Positions 265-64,000 of a stretch of 64,000 nucleotides of DNA are shown one piece after another. This DNA comes from Mangifera indica (lineage: Eukaryota > Streptophyta > Magnoliopsida > Sapindales > Anacardiaceae). The stretch lies in assembly GCF_011075055.1 (NCBI RefSeq), contig NC_058149.1:1937001-2001000 (forward strand). Direction: 5' to 3'. Positions within the stretch are counted from its first letter, which is position 1. Every line of letters begins with the position of its first letter. The notes under the pieces are model-generated. The model saw only the letters and a list, made by a program, of their open reading frames with translations, had not been told where the DNA came from and searched no databases. The position numbers and the translations under genes were made by a program.

Positions 265-1058
265 TCCATTCTTTCCACAATGATCACATACCTTTTGATA
301 ATTATTTCCAGTTTGTTTGGTTTGTCCTCGTGAACGATCAGTCTTTGTTGCAAAGATTGCACCTTCAAATGTGGGTTACGGTTGTCGTCTTTGTGTGATT
401 GTTTGTTGTTCTTGCAAAGCTAAAGAAAATATCTTGCTTAAAGTTGGTGTTGGCTCCATGGATAAAGCGTTTGATCAAAGACAATCAAAATTACTATTCA
501 GTCTTAAAAATTGATATGTCTTTTCCATCTCTCAACATCGTTAATGATCTTTTGTGACATGACAGGTGCAAATTGGTATAGGATCACACATATGCAATTC
601 CTCCCACAAGGTTTTAAATTTGGTGAAATATTGAGTCAACAATTCATCGTCTCCTTGGACCAAATTCAAGAATCCCTTTTGAATTTTGTATAGGCAGGGG
701 GCATTGCTTTGCTCTTATCTCTCACAAAGCTCATTCCATATATTGCAAGCAATCTCTGCATATTAAACATTCTCTTGGATTTCTTTTCCCAAAGAATTTC
801 TAAACCACGCATGCACCATCGTTTTATTTTTTTCCATCGTTGAAAATCTCTCAAGGTATTGTTTGGCTGAGGCAAACTTCCATTAATGAAGTTGCCCTTC
901 CCTTTTGCATATAAAGTTGTCTCCATCGAACTCTTCCATGCTGCAAAATTGTCACTGTTATAAGATGTTGGTACAAAGATTAGGCTTGGATGATCTAAAG
1001 GATACAGAAGGTATAGAGAATCATTTATCTCGTTTGTCGTGATACTGGCTAAAAACAA
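265..1058 (-). pseudogene. Decayed copia gag (UBN2/gag-type with zinc-knuckle trace)
   Basis: The first 130 codons (1058 downward) are open and include a copia-like N-terminal region with HPSLIFVPTSYNSDNFAAWK and FINGSLPQP, the classic start of copia gag. Further on, broken frames still read like QYFTKFKTLWEEL and CDHCGKNG, the latter at about 290-267 being the zinc knuckle. Stops and frameshifts separate these blocks, so no functional protein is expected. The zinc-knuckle end is flanked by a direct repeat (250-267 and 293-310) of TTTTGATAATTATTTCCA, suggesting rearrangement by short homology. Confidence 0.8.
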
Positions 1059-6538: not shown

Positions 6539-8370
6539 TTTTTTTATAACCAAAGACTCATCCATATTTATTTGATAGGTAAACCCGAGGTACAGTGTTA
6601 AACATATAATCACTGTACTAGATAAATCAAGGTTTCACAAACATAACTAAACTCAAATCAGATAAACATAATATTATTTGTATATTTTATTGTTAAAAAA
6701 TTTTAATCCAAATTAATTAAAGATGATGATTTGTAATTGAGCCTCTTGACAAATTAATTTTCTAAGTTTATCACATGAAATCTTCATAAGACCCAACTTA
6801 TAAATGGTAAGGTCTATAATTAAACTTTTTATTATGAAATTATTTAATTTGTATAAATTATCGATAATTATATCATTCACGTATATGGTATAAATTAATC
6901 TTATATTAACATAAATTTTTTTATAACCATATGAGAGATTAATTATTATCATATAGATAGTACTATAACTGTACCATTCTACAAATATTCATATAATAAA
7001 TTCAATCTGATTAATCGATCAAAATTGAATTTGATATAACTAATTAGTTATATTGACACATAAGAGGAACGACAAAATAAAATTTAATTCAATGAGGTAA
7101 AATTATCAATCAATCATTTGAATTTGGAACGAAATTAATTAAAATTTCCAACTTCGTACCTCGTTACTAGGAAGGAAGAGTTACCTTTTGACAAGTGGGC
7201 AATCAAACCAAGAATATGAAAAGCTTTAGTCAACAGGGAAGGTCAATTATTCAATAATTAGTCAATTTCGAAAATAACAATGTCGAAAAAGGTTATTTAA
7301 ATATTATTATTATTATTATAATACAAATTAATCTCATTATAAAAATTTATAATTTTGTTATTTAGAAAATATTATAATTATACATATGAAAATATTTAAT
7401 TTTATTTATCATTGTTTAATTATAATTCAAAGGTTATAACCATTAAAAACTTAACAACGTAGAGTATATTAAACCTTCTCATTTTAATTTTTCCTTCATC
7501 TTTCAAATTTTATTAAAACCCACTGTTGGTATGATATAATGATGGTTGGATCCATTTGAATTGCAATTCAACCTTAGAAAAAAATACAAATAAGTCAAGT
7601 CAAATTGAGTTAAGTATTGTTTGACTTGAGTTAAATTCGATTATATTATTATATAGCTTGAATTAGTAAGGTCTTAAATCGAGCTTAAGGCAAAAATGTT
7701 TAACTTCAGTTCAACTAAAACAATTACATTCAAACCATTTAACTTATATATTTATTATTTACTATCTATATTCAAAATTAGGAAATATAATCTTAGAGAT
7801 ATAATTACAAGACTTTAAATTTTTAAAGATTTGTTGATATCTTACTCTAGTTAAGTTATGAGCTTGCAAATTTATTGAGACAACCAATAATAAATTCAAG
7901 TTTAATTCAACAATAATTAAATCGAGTTAAGCTAACTTAACTTAAACTGGGTTAAAACGATTTTTAATCATAACCCGATTTGAATTTAAAATTTAATACG
8001 AGTTTGAAACTTTGACTCAACCAACATATAACAATATTTTTGTGACAATTAGGAATAATAGCGTGTTTGGTGAAAATGGGAATACCATGGATTCATAATA
8101 ATAATAATAATAATATAGTTAAATTTGATAATTACAAATCGTCAAAATAAAAAATCAGAAAAGAAGAAATCAAATCAGAAGATTGGTGAAAAAATTAAGG
8201 AAAATAAGGTGATGATTGAAGGGTGAGTTGGTGTAAAGCTTTTCAAGGACAAGATAGGGTCCCATCCATGTGTTAACATGTGTCTGCGTACATATGTCAC
8301 GTGCATGCATGCGTGCACCTCCCTCCCTTATTTAATGTCATTATTATTTTGTACCCTGTTGAAACCACAG
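6539..8370. other. Non-coding AT-rich stretch
   Basis: No gene seen. It contains short ATT repeats (around 7303 and 8095), one tract of TTGAGTTAAG-like words (7560-8000) and, near its end, the RY/G-box palindrome at 8298-8317. Confidence 0.4.
8298..8317. other. G-box plus RY palindromic cluster
   Basis: CACGTGCATGCATGCGTGCA combines a CACGTG G-box with overlapping CATGCA RY motifs in a near-palindrome. In plants these motifs bind bZIP/bHLH and B3 factors. No gene starts close by, so a regulatory role is unproven. Confidence 0.3.
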
Positions 8371-51659: not shown

Positions 51660-51989
51660 GGGAGTAGTTAAATTCTTTCGATTTTTTTTTTAAAAAGAAT
51701 TAACAGGAGTCCTCTCCTCTTTGTCTCTCTCTCAATTAGCATCAAAACCAGTGAGATTCGTGCGGTTACAACCAATTGTTATGAAAATTATGTGAGAAAG
51801 ATTCTGTTTTGTTCAGGGTTGTTACTCGTTTGGTTGATGCGAAGAATTTTATGCGCAAAAGAAGATTACTTTCTTGTATTTTACATTATCCTCGTACACT
51901 TCCTATGATTGCTTTAAGGTTTTGAAGAATTAGAAGTCTTTTGTACTGTTCCATTTATCAGTATTCAGGGTCTTTACAAGGGGAAAAAG
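51660..51989 (+). other. Probable XBAT32 5' leader
   Basis: CT-rich start (CCTCTCCTCTTTGTCTCTCT near 51712) and moderate GC suggest transcribed leader sequence running to the ATG at 51990. It contains several short upstream ATGs. The transcription start and a leader intron cannot be fixed from sequence. Confidence 0.4.
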
Positions 51990-54900
51990 ATGAAGTTTCT
52001 AAGCATCGTAGGTAATTCATTTGGGTGTTCGGCTTCTGGGGAGCGTTTAGTTTCGGCTGCAAGAGATGGTGATCTTCAAGAAGCCAAGGCCTTGTTGGAA
52101 TACAACCCAAGGCTGGTGAGGTATTCAACTTTCGGTGTGCGAAATTCACCTCTTCATTATTCTGCAGCCCAGGGCCACCATGAGGTATGCAATTGTTGAA
52201 GATAGTTCCATGTTCTGAATTACATGTTTACTTTCTGTTGTTCTGATGATTGTCCTTTTATATCTTTAGATAGTTTCACTTCTGATCGAGTCTGGGGTGG
52301 ATATTAATCTCAGGAATTATCGTGGTCAGGTATAATCAGTTTATATGTCTTATTGAATATTTTGGTTTATTTTGATCATTTATCAGTTTTGATTTCAGTT
52401 TTTGATCGCTTGAATGTTCAGATTGGTAAACTTAATTTCATATTTCAATTTCGCTCATCTTTGCATTCATCGTTTTGGTGAACAGACTGCTTTGATGCAA
52501 GCTTGTCAACATGGTCACTGGGAGGTTGTTCTGACCTTAATTCTTTATAAAGCCAATGTAAGATATTTCTCTACATCTCCATTTTCCTTGATTCGTTACA
52601 GATTTTTGTGATAAAATTATGATAAACTTTTGGGAATTGGTTCTAAGATTCACAGAGCAGATTATCTGAACGGGGGTACTGCACTCCACTTGGCCGCTTT
52701 AAATGGTCATTCTCAATGTATCCGGCTACTTCTTGCAGATTACATTCCTGGTAAGCCCAATGTTTGGAACAGGTTAAGGAAAAAGTCAAACGAAGATGAA
52801 TTGATCTTAGAATTCAATGAAAGGTACTTTCATTTAAATTTCCTCTTGCATTTGGTGATAGTTCTTGAGTTTACTGTTTTGATTTATTTTTCTGCCATTT
52901 GATTGCACCAGTGCACTCCATGAAGTAATTAATAGAACGTCTGATGGAGGAATTACTGCTCTTCATATGGCAGCACTAAATGAACATGTTGAAAGCGTTC
53001 ATTTACTCTTGGATTTAGGGGCTTCTGTTTCTGAGGTCACTGTGGAAGATGGAACTACAATTGATCTTATAGGTTATCCCCTATTCTCCACCTTTCAAAG
53101 GAACTATCTTTGTCCAAATGCATTGTTAGTTTTACTTGGTTGGTGTTTAATGGAATTTGTTTTGAACTGAAAAATTTATTCTGCACTCTTCTTGATCCTC
53201 CAATCCTCCTCCTTTCTCTTCCCATCATTCGTATTTGCTTATCAGATTGTGAACATTTGATTGGTTTGCTGAAATGATATAACTTTCACAGAAAGTTTTA
53301 GGCATGTGCCTTTCAGAAAGTAACATCTATCTCTTTCAGTCACTCATTGATTTGTTCTTTGAAGATTTCTTGAAATAATCAATTCTACTTAACCTTCCCA
53401 GCTTCCATATTGATGTTATTTGCTTCAGTTCACATTATTTATTGAAGTGCATGTTGTTGCCAATTGCAGGAGCTGGGAGCACACCGCTTCATTACGCTGC
53501 GTGTGGTGGTAATGCTCAATGTTGTCAAGTATGTTTTCAATTAAATATTTGAATTTTGATTTTGCTGTTACATTTGTCTTGAAGACTTAGATTTGTGTCT
53601 TTATTGTGAATAGCTTTTGATTGCCATGGGAGCAAGTTTGACTGCTGAAAATGCAAATGGGTATGCATTTTTTTCTCCTCGGCTTGTATATACATAAAAA
53701 TTTATGATGTTTTAATATTAGTTTTCAGTGAGCTATTTGGTGTTTTTTTACCAGTGTCCTTTATATGTCTTCTATTCAAGTAGACTTCAAGAAAGCATAG
53801 ACATTTATATGTGTTATACCACTTGTTTTTGTAATGATGTTTTAAATTAGCTTAGTTTGCGTTGTTGTATGTGTATGCAAGGGGAAGGGGTAAAGTTGTT
53901 GGGTTTAACTCTAGAAACTTTTGAAGCTGCTGAGGCCAAAACAGCAGCAGTAGTCTATGCAGTGGAAGGAGTCTCTCTTAAGCCTGGAAACTCCCTTGCT
54001 TTCAATTGAAACCTCAAGAGCTTAGCCTTTCAAGATGGAAGAGGTGTCCAACAGGTTGCAAAGGCGAGTAGTTATCACTCTCTTGAGTGGATATGAGCAA
54101 GTCAAAACTGTAAAATGTGCTTGACAAACTTTATTATAAGTGGAAATGGAGAAAACTCGTGATGCAAATGAACTATTCTTCCATGTGCCATCAGCATGGT
54201 GGCTTTTGAGGAACAAGATCACTTGCTAATGGGCATTTGGCTGTATTTCTATTGAAGATGCCAAGTTGTGCCAACTTTTGACTGCTTATGTCTAGCTATA
54301 CTAGCTTGAAGATGGTTATTCTTAAAACTTTTTCAAGTCCTTTGACTTGTGATATACTAAAGTGAGATTCTGTGAGTTAGGTGTTGTGCCTTAACTGAAA
54401 TTAGAAAACAGTTAACGTCATCCATGAAGTGACTGGTAGTGAACAAGATGATCCTCTCTTAGAAATTGCACTTTCTCATATATCCCTTAGAGTTTGTTAA
54501 TTTCAGTTTAGGGTTACGGTATTAGCAATCAAATAATTGGAGGGAGAATGGAGCGTTAGATCCAGTTCTCTGTCTCTTGTGTGCTCCTCTACACGGTAAA
54601 TAGATCAAAGCTGTCAAAATATGATATACATCTAGATCCTGGAAGTCTCTGGTATCATATTGTGATGGCCATTTTTAAATTCATTTGCTTTCTTTTATTC
54701 TGTGGCTCGGTTGAGTGCATCAATTCCATGAGAGAAACTTGATTGGTTGATTATAACCATAAGCCCAATGATTTTAAACTTTTTTTTTTTAAATTTTTCA
54801 AGAACTTTTGACAAAATGTTGGCACAAAGTGATGATAAGAAGGCTCAATGTGTAGTGGTAGTTGGTTGTTATGTGCTTTTGATGATGCCCAAATATGTGC

Positions 54901-57244
54901 ACAAGGAACAGGGAGGGCGGTGTTTATCAGGGCGAAGATCTGCATTTCTTATGTGGGATGTTGAATGCTTTTTGGTTCATAGTTTTGCATTAGGATTTTT
55001 ACCCCGGATATATGCATTTCTCAAAGTCTTTTTCTTTATCATATTTTATTATTTTTTAAATAATACTTATTGAAGAGTGGGAACTATAGGCATTCTTGGA
55101 TGTGGGAATGTTATATTTTGATACTTTGTGGAGACTTTATGGAGATAAAACCTTTTTGCTTCTTTTCCCTAGTAATTGTGTGCCATTCCTTCTTATTAAG
55201 ATGTATTCATTTATGTAACATTGTTGACATAGCCCTGTAATATTTCAATTGTTCAAGATGGACTCCTTTGATGGTTGCTCGTTCATGGCATAGAAGTTGT
55301 CTCGAGCAGATTCTAAGTACTCAGCCAGAATGTCAATTAGAGGTTCTTCCTTCACCATATCTGTCTCTTCCCCTTAAGAGCATTGTCAAGATTGCTAGGT
55401 AAGTAAATATATACATATATTCTATATTTTATATTAAGTTATAAACTGCACCAGCGTATGGTCTTCCACAGCATATAAGCCTTAATTTCTTTTTTTGTAC
55501 TTCTAAATTTCTATACCATTTGAATTTATGTGTTTTTGAGTATTTCCTTAAGAATCCTTTTGGGTGCCCCATGAGTATTAGCATCTCTATTGTCCTCACA
55601 GCCAATAAGCTTTGTATTTTCATATTTTGCTCTGATCAAACCACTAGTTTGAAGGCTCTGAAATTTTTCTTGAAAGTTTTGTAGCATCTTAATAGAAATC
55701 CTGCAAAAAGAAACCAAAGAGATGTCTTCTTTTCCATCTGAAACTTTCTTCCATATTTTCTAAGTCTTATGATTAGAAGCAGTAGAGAAACTTTATGTAT
55801 ATTTGTGCACACAGAGGCTAATGGATTGTGACACATGGTGCACTTTACCACCTTGGCATAAGGGAATGACTGATTATATGTTGGATACTTTGAGTTCTTA
55901 ACTTGTATGTTGTCATTTGCAGAGAATGTGGATGGAGGAATAGCACTTCTGTACCCACATGCCAAGATCCTTGCGTCGTTTGTTTAGAAAGAGTGTGCAC
56001 AGTAGCAGCAGAAGGTATGTTATCAGCAATCTCTCTCTTTTGAATCTTTAGCCACATGCCAAGATGCATGTGTTGCTTGTTGGCAAGAAGACAAATGGAA
56101 ATTCGACCATATTTCGTATCAGTCTAACTGTATACCATCTTATATGTTCTTGCCCCAACAAATATGCATTCAAATATGTGCAGATTTCATTCACACGCAG
56201 TCAGGCATTTAGACATAAGTCCATGATAGGGGTTGAGTACGTGAATGAAGTGGCTTAGATATTCCCATTTACACAAATGCAAGCACAAAAATTTAGACTT
56301 TGACATTATGGCTTTAGATGATGGAGTTGAATTAAGTGCTCACGTTGTAGGAGTCTAGGAACTAGAATGCAAAAATAATGGTGGGCATGTGTTATTGCTT
56401 TGTCAACGGAAATATATTGGTGGTTGCAGTGACTTATTCAAGTAGCAGTTATGGTGGTATTTGGTGATGGAAGCGATATGTTGATGGCTCTTGGTGGTAA
56501 CATTAGGATCGGCAATGCAACATAGATATGGTTGTTCAAAATTATAATGTCAACTCCCCAAAAAATGGAAAATATAAGGTTTTAATTGTGTTAGTACATG
56601 TATTAATGTCAACATTCATGAAGTTTTCTTTGATCTCTTTTGATATTAGGATTGTTTTTTTCTTTCCAATTCTACTCAAATCTTTCCATAGCCGAGACAA
56701 TGATACAAATTGCTATAATGCAGGTTGTGATCACGAGTTCTGCACACAATGTGCCCTATATCTCTGCTCGACAAACTGCACCTCAACCGTCTCGAAAGGC
56801 CCCCTTGGCTCAATTCCCTGTCCTCTTTGCCGGCATGGCATAGTTTCATTTGAGATGCTGCCGGAGACAAAACCAGTCAAGGACATTGCAAGAACAAGTG
56901 CAGCCCTGGCATTTTGCACCTGTTCAGGACCAGGTGACATAACAGAATCAACTTCACTAACAACAGCCTTCTGCAAGCCAGGTTTCGACTGCTCCCGAAT
57001 CACACCTCTTGGTAGCCTAAGTTGCCAGAAGTTCCCATCAATAAAACTCAACTCCAGTTTTTGCATGGGAGCCCCAGAAACTAGTTCTTCATTAGTTTCT
57101 CGTACGGTTGACCGGAACAGACTTGACAACCATTTGGTAAGGTATTCAAAATCGAATTTTAGACGGTCAGTCTCCAACAACGAGCGGCGAAGGTCATGGT
57201 TTTCTGCACTCAATCAGTATGTAGCTACAGGCAGTGGATGCTAA
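51990..57244 (+). CDS. XBAT32: E3 ubiquitin ligase XBAT32 (ankyrin repeats + RING), 507 aa
   Basis: Ten exons, GT-AG, frame intact: 51990-52184, 52270-52329, 52486-52557, 52648-52823, 52912-53072, 53470-53528, 53614-53660, 55258-55398, 55923-56014, 56724-57244. The start [20 protein letters not shown] is the family signature. Ankyrin repeats occupy about residues 10-270 ([86 protein letters not shown]). The RING finger is at residues 321-370: Cys321, Cys324, Cys336, His338, Cys341, Cys344, Cys367, Cys370. The tail ends [19 protein letters not shown]. In Arabidopsis, XBAT32 ubiquitinates ACC synthases ACS4/ACS7, limiting ethylene and promoting lateral roots. Intron 7 (53661-55257) is unusually long at 1.6 kb. 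Confidence 0.95.
53661..55257 (+). other. Large intron 7 of XBAT32
   Basis: 1,597 bp against 80-700 bp for the other introns. It contains a less AT-rich block (53880-54230) and an open frame at 54747-55073 that has no start ATG near its beginning and no domain. It may hold an old insertion, but no terminal repeats were found. Confidence 0.5.
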
Positions 57245-58648: not shown

Positions 58649-59149
58649 TATTTTGATTATATGACAATGTTTTTTCTCTAGTTTCATGTTTTTATGACTA
58701 CTTTGAACATAGTTTGAATTTAGAAAGTCCAATAGAAACTCAAGCTCAGTTGAGTTAGCGACGAATTGTTAGAGAAGTTACCAAAGAAGTAGACAAATGA
58801 TTACTGAAGAAGAAGAAGAAAATAGTTGGAGAAAATAAATTACCATAAAAGGTTAAAAAAGTCCTCGTAAAAGATTAATTTGTGGACAATTGGCTTGACT
58901 TGACCTATAGTTACTTTAGTTTAAGTTTCGCTTGTTCAAACCAAGTTTGCAGCAGGTGGAACTCTCCACATCTGTGCATCAGATGCATGTAACCAATAAA
59001 AATTTTTGTACTATATCACATATGCTGACATGGCTTGTTCTTATTCGTTGATTAAATGACAACTTTGTTCCTTAGTTTCATGTTTTAAAGCCTTGGATTG
59101 TACAACAAACATACCTAAAATCTGCAAAGAGGAACAATAAATACACACA
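58649..59149. other. Non-coding stretch containing the paralogous empty site
   Basis: 59011-59088 (ATCACATATGCTGACATGGC ... GTTGATTAAATGACAACTTT) is collinear with the two flanks of element C joined together. Confidence 0.6.
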
Positions 59150-63469: not shown

Positions 63470-63478
63470 TATTTATAT
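63470..63478 (+). promoter_or_regulatory. TATA box of the TAS3 locus
   Basis: TATTTATAT about 190 bp before the 5' miR390 site, predicting a transcript start near 63500. Confidence 0.5.
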
Positions 63479-63524
63479 GACTTCACCACTCAGCTCAACT
63501 CTCACTAACAAAACGAACAACGCA

Positions 63525-63659
63525 ATGTTGTCTTCAACACCCTTCATTTCTATCTCTATCTGCGTCTCGTTTCAGCTTTATATTCAAGCTTTCTTGCTGT
63601 TTCTAGCAATGGAGTTCTTTGAAAAATGGAGATGCAAGGAGGATACATCTAGGGTTTGA
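63525..63659 (+). CDS. Short ORF upstream of the 5' miR390 site in TAS3 (44 aa)
   Basis: The first ATG likely inside the transcript (63525) opens 44 codons (MLSSTPFISISICVSFQLYI...) ending in TGA at 63657-63659, 7 bases before the 5' miR390 site. A nested in-frame ATG lies at 63609. The peptide is not a known domain. In known TAS3 RNAs, a short ORF ending just before the AGO7-bound site guides ribosomes there and helps SGS3-dependent siRNA production, so the position matters more than the peptide. Confidence 0.55.
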   Translation: MLSSTPFISISICVSFQLYIQAFLLFLAMEFFEKWRCKEDTSRV

Positions 63660-63666
63660 TTCTTAT

Positions 63667-63687
63667 GGTGCTATCCCAACTGAGCTT
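63667..63687 (+). other. 5' miR390 site of TAS3, non-cleavable type
   Basis: Compared with the perfect miR390 complement it has a G:U pair at miRNA position 19 and mismatches at positions 9 and 10 (CCCAACTGAG in place of CCCTCCTGAG). Central mismatches prevent slicing but permit AGO7 binding, exactly as known for the TAS3 5' site. Confidence 0.93.
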
Positions 63688-63714
63688 TTCATGATTTTTA
63701 TTTTTTATTTTTTT

Positions 63715-63735
63715 TTCTTGACCTTGCAAGGCTTT
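63715..63735 (+). ncRNA. tasiR-ARF
   Basis: Starts TTCTTGACCTTGCAAGGC, the conserved tasiR-ARF core. The usual T at position 13 is C here, which changes a G:U into a G:C pair with the conserved ARF3/ARF4 target core CTTGCAAGGTCAAGAA. Position 17 is G instead of A, a wobble. Single copy; the next 21-nt register shows no second tasiR-ARF. Confidence 0.92.
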
Positions 63736-63891
63736 TTCGGTTTTGCATCTTCTCCATGACCGCCCTCTATTCCATTTTAATTCTTGATGAAACATCTCAG
63801 CTTCACCCATTTGCCCATTCTTTCTTTCATTTACATTCCGTCAATTTTTATTTTTGTTTTCAATCTCACCGGCCCTCCCACGTTCTTCATC

Positions 63892-63912
63892 AGTTCTATC
63901 CCTCCTGAGCTT
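63892..63912 (+). other. 3' miR390 site of TAS3, cleavable type
   Basis: Contains CTATCCCTCCTGAGCTT, pairing perfectly with miR390 positions 1-17. Differences are restricted to positions 18-21. The predicted slice lies between 63902 and 63903. Confidence 0.95.
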
Positions 63913-64000
63913 TGAAATTTTGTGTTGTTTCGCTTAGATTTTGTGTTGTTTCATTATATCTATTGTACTGTTCAAAATGTCGCTGCAATGAGAAATGGCT

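Follow-up and report, generated by a model that had tools for sequence, protein, structure and literature searches.

TAS3 trans-acting siRNA genes are common to land plants (PMC5902766). Two classes of them have been described, one with two tasiR-ARFs and a 5' miR390 site that cannot be cut, and the other with a single tasiR-ARF and a 5' site paired at its centre (PMC4254747, PMC5954288); the same two classes are given for cassava (PMC4124141) and in an account of land-plant TAS3 evolution (PMC3835848). The rule separating them is not strict, since in tea, which also has two one-tasiARF loci, a two-tasiARF gene is seemingly cut at its 5' site (PMC10673657), and the TAS3 paralogs of spruce have 5' sites of both kinds; the 5' sites of the Arabidopsis TAS3 loci are, in the source that describes the spruce genes, all said to be uncut (PMC5902766). 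A first-pass annotation of the DNA considered here had held that an uncut 5' site defines TAS3. That definition is too narrow, as one-tasiARF TAS3 genes with a cut 5' site exist (PMC4124141, PMC5954288) and the 5' site of the one-tasiARF gene of lotus has been judged cuttable (PMC4254747).

We analysed a 64-kb stretch of Mangifera indica DNA (C13:1937001-2001000, hereafter the window) together with the 391-Mb genome from which it comes. A segment close to the end of the window contains two miR390 sites and a tasiR-ARF, and we are confident from its sequence features that it is a functional TAS3 gene; as a TAS3 locus it is very probably genuine, and it is probably active. It is a familiar kind of gene with a slightly unusual one-product layout. 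No other copy of the segment was found in the genome, positions 63500-64000 matching only themselves when used as a DNA query, and an Rfam scan of the whole window returned no match at the gathering threshold. The same was true of three TAS3 loci scanned likewise (L004, L015 and L016).

The 5' miR390 site (GGTGCTATCCCAACTGAGCTT, 63667-63687, forward strand) is unpaired at miR390 positions 9 (G:A) and 10 (A:A) and has a G:U pair at position 19, giving a score of 4.5 where flaws at miRNA positions 2-13 count double; it is predicted to be bound but uncut. The 3' site (AGTTCTATCCCTCCTGAGCTT, 63892-63912, forward strand) is paired from position 1 to 17, and hence across the cut point, with flaws only at positions 18, 19 and 21 (score 2.5) and a predicted cut at 63902/63903. 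This cut, and the one at 63677/63678 that would apply if the 5' site were cut, agree with the first-pass annotation, which had also placed both sites and the tasiR-ARF correctly, base for base. Its description of the locus as complete is sound for the functional core and not beyond it, the window ending 97 nt past the cut. The two sites lie on the same strand 225 nt apart, within the spacing of roughly 150-260 nt covered by the two-hit cases compared.

miR390-like and tasiR-ARF-like stretches might in principle have come together fortuitously in AT-rich DNA, and weaker miR390-like matches do exist in the window, the next best being at 58742 and 28488 (7.0 each). We find such an origin scarcely credible: in 12 first-order Markov shuffles of the window, searched on both strands, the best miR390 score per shuffle was 7.5-9.5, so that the real sites at 2.5 and 4.5 beat all 12, and the order, strand and spacing of the sites are right, with an exact 17-nt tasiR-ARF pattern between them. 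At 58742 (minus strand) the match is slightly better than that of any shuffle, but the six tasiR-ARF-like places that rank highest in the window all lie away from it, and we therefore regard it as a chance match. A clear gap is also seen genome-wide in the scores of flanking miR390 sites. The pattern TTCTTGACCTTGYAAGR, allowing at most one mismatch, occurs at 36 places (8 for the reversed control), and miR390 sites were sought up to 400 nt on each side of all of these tasiR-ARF-like places, a search that misses more changed tasiR-ARFs. Five of the 36 places are flanked on both sides by miR390 sites with scores of 5 or less. They make up three loci, namely the C13 locus with its single tasiR-ARF and the loci of C3 and C7, each carrying a pair of tasiR-ARFs; 30 other places score 10 or worse on both sides. 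At the remaining place, in the C14:6002749 region, the upstream miR390 site scores 2.0 and the best downstream one 12.5, and no recognisable 3' miR390 site was found within 1.2 kb. The 5' sites of the C3 and C7 loci are unpaired at positions 10-11 and that of C14 is paired there; at C14 the 5' cut and the tasiR-ARF are 65 nt apart, which puts the latter near D4, the position described for cassava TAS3c (PMC4124141). Between the C13 and C3 TAS3 loci, the same-strand core matches are both miR390 sites plus the tasiR-ARF and its adjoining T-rich stretch. Two further candidates were rejected: a C18 place with a tasiR-ARF-like stretch lacks a miR390 site, and a C21 locus, where a poor tasiR-ARF-like stretch accompanies a miR390-like site, was not accepted as a decayed relative, since past a 16-nt site match its similarity is scattered and AT-rich.

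The tasiR-ARF of the C13 locus (TTCTTGACCTTGCAAGGCTTT, 63715-63735) is on the sense strand between the two miR390 sites, matches the 17-nt tasiR-ARF pattern exactly and has two mismatches to the tasiR-ARF consensus; the next best place in the window has five. That place lies outside the locus, in which no second tasiR-ARF was found; TTCTTGA at about 63781, considered by eye for this role, matches over seven bases. Between the 3' cut and the start of the tasiR-ARF are 188 nt, 1 nt short of 9x21, and strict-register D9(+) would be 63714-63734. Except for this 1-nt offset, the tested sequence features agree with the TAS3 identity first proposed for the segment. Offsets in the opposite direction are found at C7 (1 nt) and C3 (2 nt), and small offsets have precedent, as longan siRNAs in strict register begin 1 nt inside the usual tasiR-ARF (PMC4680215) and a 2-nt register shift is described for lotus TAS3c (PMC4254747). 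A fit to the register within 1 nt is expected by chance in 3 of 21 cases, and the near-register position is weak support for TAS3. The first phased siRNA predicted by computing from the cut, 5'D1(+), would occupy 63882-63902 on the forward strand and end at the cut; at the equivalent place of the C3 and C7 loci, the 21-mer is identical to a D1+ read reported from longan (PMC4680215).

A TATA-like box (TATTTATA, 63470-63477, forward strand) suggests a transcription start at about 63500-63507. From the first ATG after this putative start runs a forward-strand frame of 44 aa (63525-63659), with an in-frame inner ATG at 63609 (16 aa), and its TGA (63657-63659) leaves a gap of 7 nt to the 5' miR390 site. 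Two shorter frames, read in another register, terminate 14 nt short of the site. The corresponding gap is 7 nt at C14 and 3 nt at both C3 and C7, where the short frames appear by eye to be spliced. Other frames are present as well, one at C3 ending 29 nt before the 5' site and others, in different registers, crossing the site at C7 and C14 (to stops 64 and 273 nt beyond the first base of the site, respectively). Of random positions, 9.3% (743/8000) show a stop within 10 nt that closes a frame of 8 codons or more; all four loci pass this test with the minimum set at 8 or at 13 codons, and at 16 the unspliced C7 frame fails. The test was framed after the C13 locus had been seen, and C3 and C7 are pair-like, so that a fair count is two further lineages, or about 0.9%. 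In Arabidopsis, TAS3a carries ribosome-occupied small ORFs, and TAS3 with its ribosome-bound part deleted gave less transcript and less siRNA; in the account given there cutting efficiency was not lowered and was, by one measure, raised (PMC12127299). The role of translation in TAS3 is, on that result, not settled. Ribosome stalling has been placed upstream of the miR390 site, with a nearby stop codon needed in an artificial locus (PMC5207768), and stalling near the 5' site has been described as important (PMC8860578). Frames stopping 3-7 nt before the 5' site at four loci fit the stalling model, and this close stop-to-site distance offers a simple comparative test of that model of siRNA production.

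The C13 TAS3 is thus in between the described classes, having a single tasiR-ARF yet an unpaired 5' centre. Like the two-tasiARF genes (AtTAS3a, longan DlTAS3 and the C3 and C7 loci), it has two miR390 sites, the 5' one unpaired at its centre and the 3' one paired across the cut, and a tasiR-ARF on the sense strand, and like C3 and C7 it has a short frame that stops just before the 5' site. It differs from them in carrying one tasiR-ARF rather than a tandem pair. The tasiR-ARF lies 27 nt behind the 5' site (77-79 nt in C3 and C7), the cut-to-cut distance is 225 nt as against 257-258 nt, the nearest register is D9 rather than D8 and D7, and outside the motifs there is little similarity. The one-tasiARF genes (cassava TAS3c, lotus TAS3c, watermelon TAS3b and C14) share with it the single tasiR-ARF, and the 20 nt around the tasiR-ARF are identical in C13 and C14, but their 5' sites are paired at positions 10-11 and, where the sources describe this, cut or judged cuttable, whereas that of C13 is unpaired at 9-10. 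We tentatively raise the possibility, which we rate as somewhat doubtful, of a third eudicot TAS3 design, with a single tasiR-ARF, a 5' site bound but uncut, and a stop codon held within 3-7 nt of it. Short frames of different TAS3 groups in this genome do not look related, and such a design, if true, would mean selection on the place where ribosomes stop and not on the peptide. Neither the in-between layout nor the stop distance is claimed as new, as the literature searched did not settle whether either had been described before.

The other members of the TAS3 circuit are found in the same genome. The 21-nt miR390 used as the query is present, letter for letter, in four folded MIR390 hairpins (Rfam MIR390, 93.8-104.7 bits; gathering threshold 77), and it is therefore the plant's own. 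Allowing at most one mismatch, the pattern GCTCAGGAGGGATAG occurs at 21 places genome-wide (12 for the reversed control), and the eight exact places are the 3' sites of the three TAS3 loci on C3, C7 and C13, the four hairpins, and C2:13244498. At this last place, and at C13:1717947, the frames read as leucine-rich repeats (IPPELG) and are near-complementary to miR390 (scores 2 and 1.5, respectively), possibly through the chance of codon use or as direct targets. As for tasiR-ARF targets, gene copies on C2, C6, C9 and C12 each have two tasiR-ARF sites, 186-210 nt apart, in frames reading VLQGQE. In the C2 and C9 copies the sites are followed by an AUX_IAA match (ARF4-like), the scanned pieces of the C6 and C12 copies (ARF3-like) lack an AUX_IAA match, and ARF_AD fragments in all four are below the curated cut-off. 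Genes on C8 and C5 have one site and an AUX_IAA match each (ARF2-like); a second C5 place (score 3.0) has no Pfam match. The numbering of these genes as ARF2, ARF3 and ARF4 is our own reading. The C13 tasiR-ARF pairs with one site in every ARF3/ARF4-like copy (4/4) with two G:U pairs as the only flaws, and the resulting score of 1.0 equals that of the better C3 tasiR-ARF; against the ARF2-like sites it scores 1.5 and 3.5. The two miR390 sites, the tasiR-ARF and this same-genome miR390/ARF circuit together argue for the identity of the C13 locus as TAS3, most likely a working one.

The TAS3 locus lies 6.4 kb downstream of an ankyrin/RING gene (51918-57241, forward strand, the outer limits of the exon-size frames seen) that serves as a synteny anchor. 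Pfam gave ankyrin matches in the gene, and an XB3/XBAT31 RING match at 43.1 bits fell under the curated cut-off of 50; we read the gene as XBAT32-like. On C17 there is a relative of its last exon, with 76% identity and two stops inside the matched stretch, and in the 29.9 kb of C17 read this exon and a stretch matching window-equivalent 68380-69794 occur in the same order and about 11 kb apart, as on C13. For the DNA that separates the neighbouring genes (C13 57346-68380), blastn against the C17 stretch gave nothing as good as E 0.001 (four matches overall, none there), and the C17 stretch contains neither a pair of miR390 sites nor, at up to 3 mismatches in 17, a tasiR-ARF. When the search was loosened, a single AT-rich match at E 0.001 appeared downstream of the TAS3 core, and the best one inside the core was at E 0.41. 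C17:10561760, the second-best miR390-like place of the C17 stretch (8.5), is at the position expected of a TAS3 remnant and was not accepted as one, since its flank is unconvincing (73.7% over 38 nt, E 0.41). The C17 counterpart was lost, has decayed or never existed, and the C13 TAS3 is in this respect unlike the C3 and C7 loci and the ARF-like genes, which look paired.

A matching C17 region without a recognisable TAS3, in a genome where two two-tasiARF TAS3 loci have both miR390 sites present, is what might be seen if the C13 locus were a recently silenced relic, its sites intact, its promoter or transcript dead, and the work done by C3 and C7. We consider this very unlikely, as the sites and tasiR-ARF core are intact though the intergenic DNA has no C17 match at E 0.001, and the locus has both a TATA-like box and a short frame that terminates close upstream of the 5' site. 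Intact 21-nt sites in such DNA suggest that the sites are under selection. A functional TAS3 gene is thus our preferred reading, although this copy may be dispensable given the lack of a recognisable C17 TAS3 and the two other two-hit loci.

The same block of the window holds an auxin-canalisation gene (PF05703) at about 21.3-22.4 kb (forward strand) and a RING-H2 gene (PF13639) at 36.0-37.6 kb (reverse strand). XBAT32 is At5g57740 in Arabidopsis, and these two genes and the XBAT32-like gene may match the gene order near At5g57740-57780. AtTAS3c is At5g57735 (PMC4680215). The C13 TAS3 is possibly its ortholog, the likeness being one of position beside an XBAT32 or XBAT32-like gene. Also noted in this region were a DPBB_1 match (PF03330, 55.4 bits; expansin- or EG45-like) at 7615-7905 (forward strand) of L032, about 6.6 kb past the window end, Alg9-like mannosyltransferase exons (PF03901) at about 28.6-30.0 kb of the window (reverse strand), a frame at 666-1058 (reverse strand) resembling by eye a copia-type retroelement gag fragment, and a long TA microsatellite at about 50.6 kb, visible as IYIY runs. 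The downstream gene, acetyltransferase-like by eye, was left unnamed, as three exon-size frames had no Pfam match.

Our current working hypothesis for the C13 locus follows established TAS3 biology for transcription, stalling, cutting, dicing and target action. The transcript would begin near 63503, and ribosomes translating the short frame would halt just before the 5' miR390 site, which AGO7-miR390 would occupy without cutting. The 3' site would be cut by AGO7-miR390 at 63902/63903, the upstream fragment would be converted to double-stranded RNA via SGS3 and RDR6, and DCL4 would dice this from the cut in 21-nt steps, the ninth step giving a tasiR-ARF that would cut ARF3, ARF4 and probably ARF2 mRNAs. 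The local additions worth having are the layout, the absent C17 counterpart and the stop-codon spacing. The finding adds to the Mangifera indica genome, which also holds miR390 genes and ARF-like targets, a TAS3 copy at a place that a protein-based annotation would miss.
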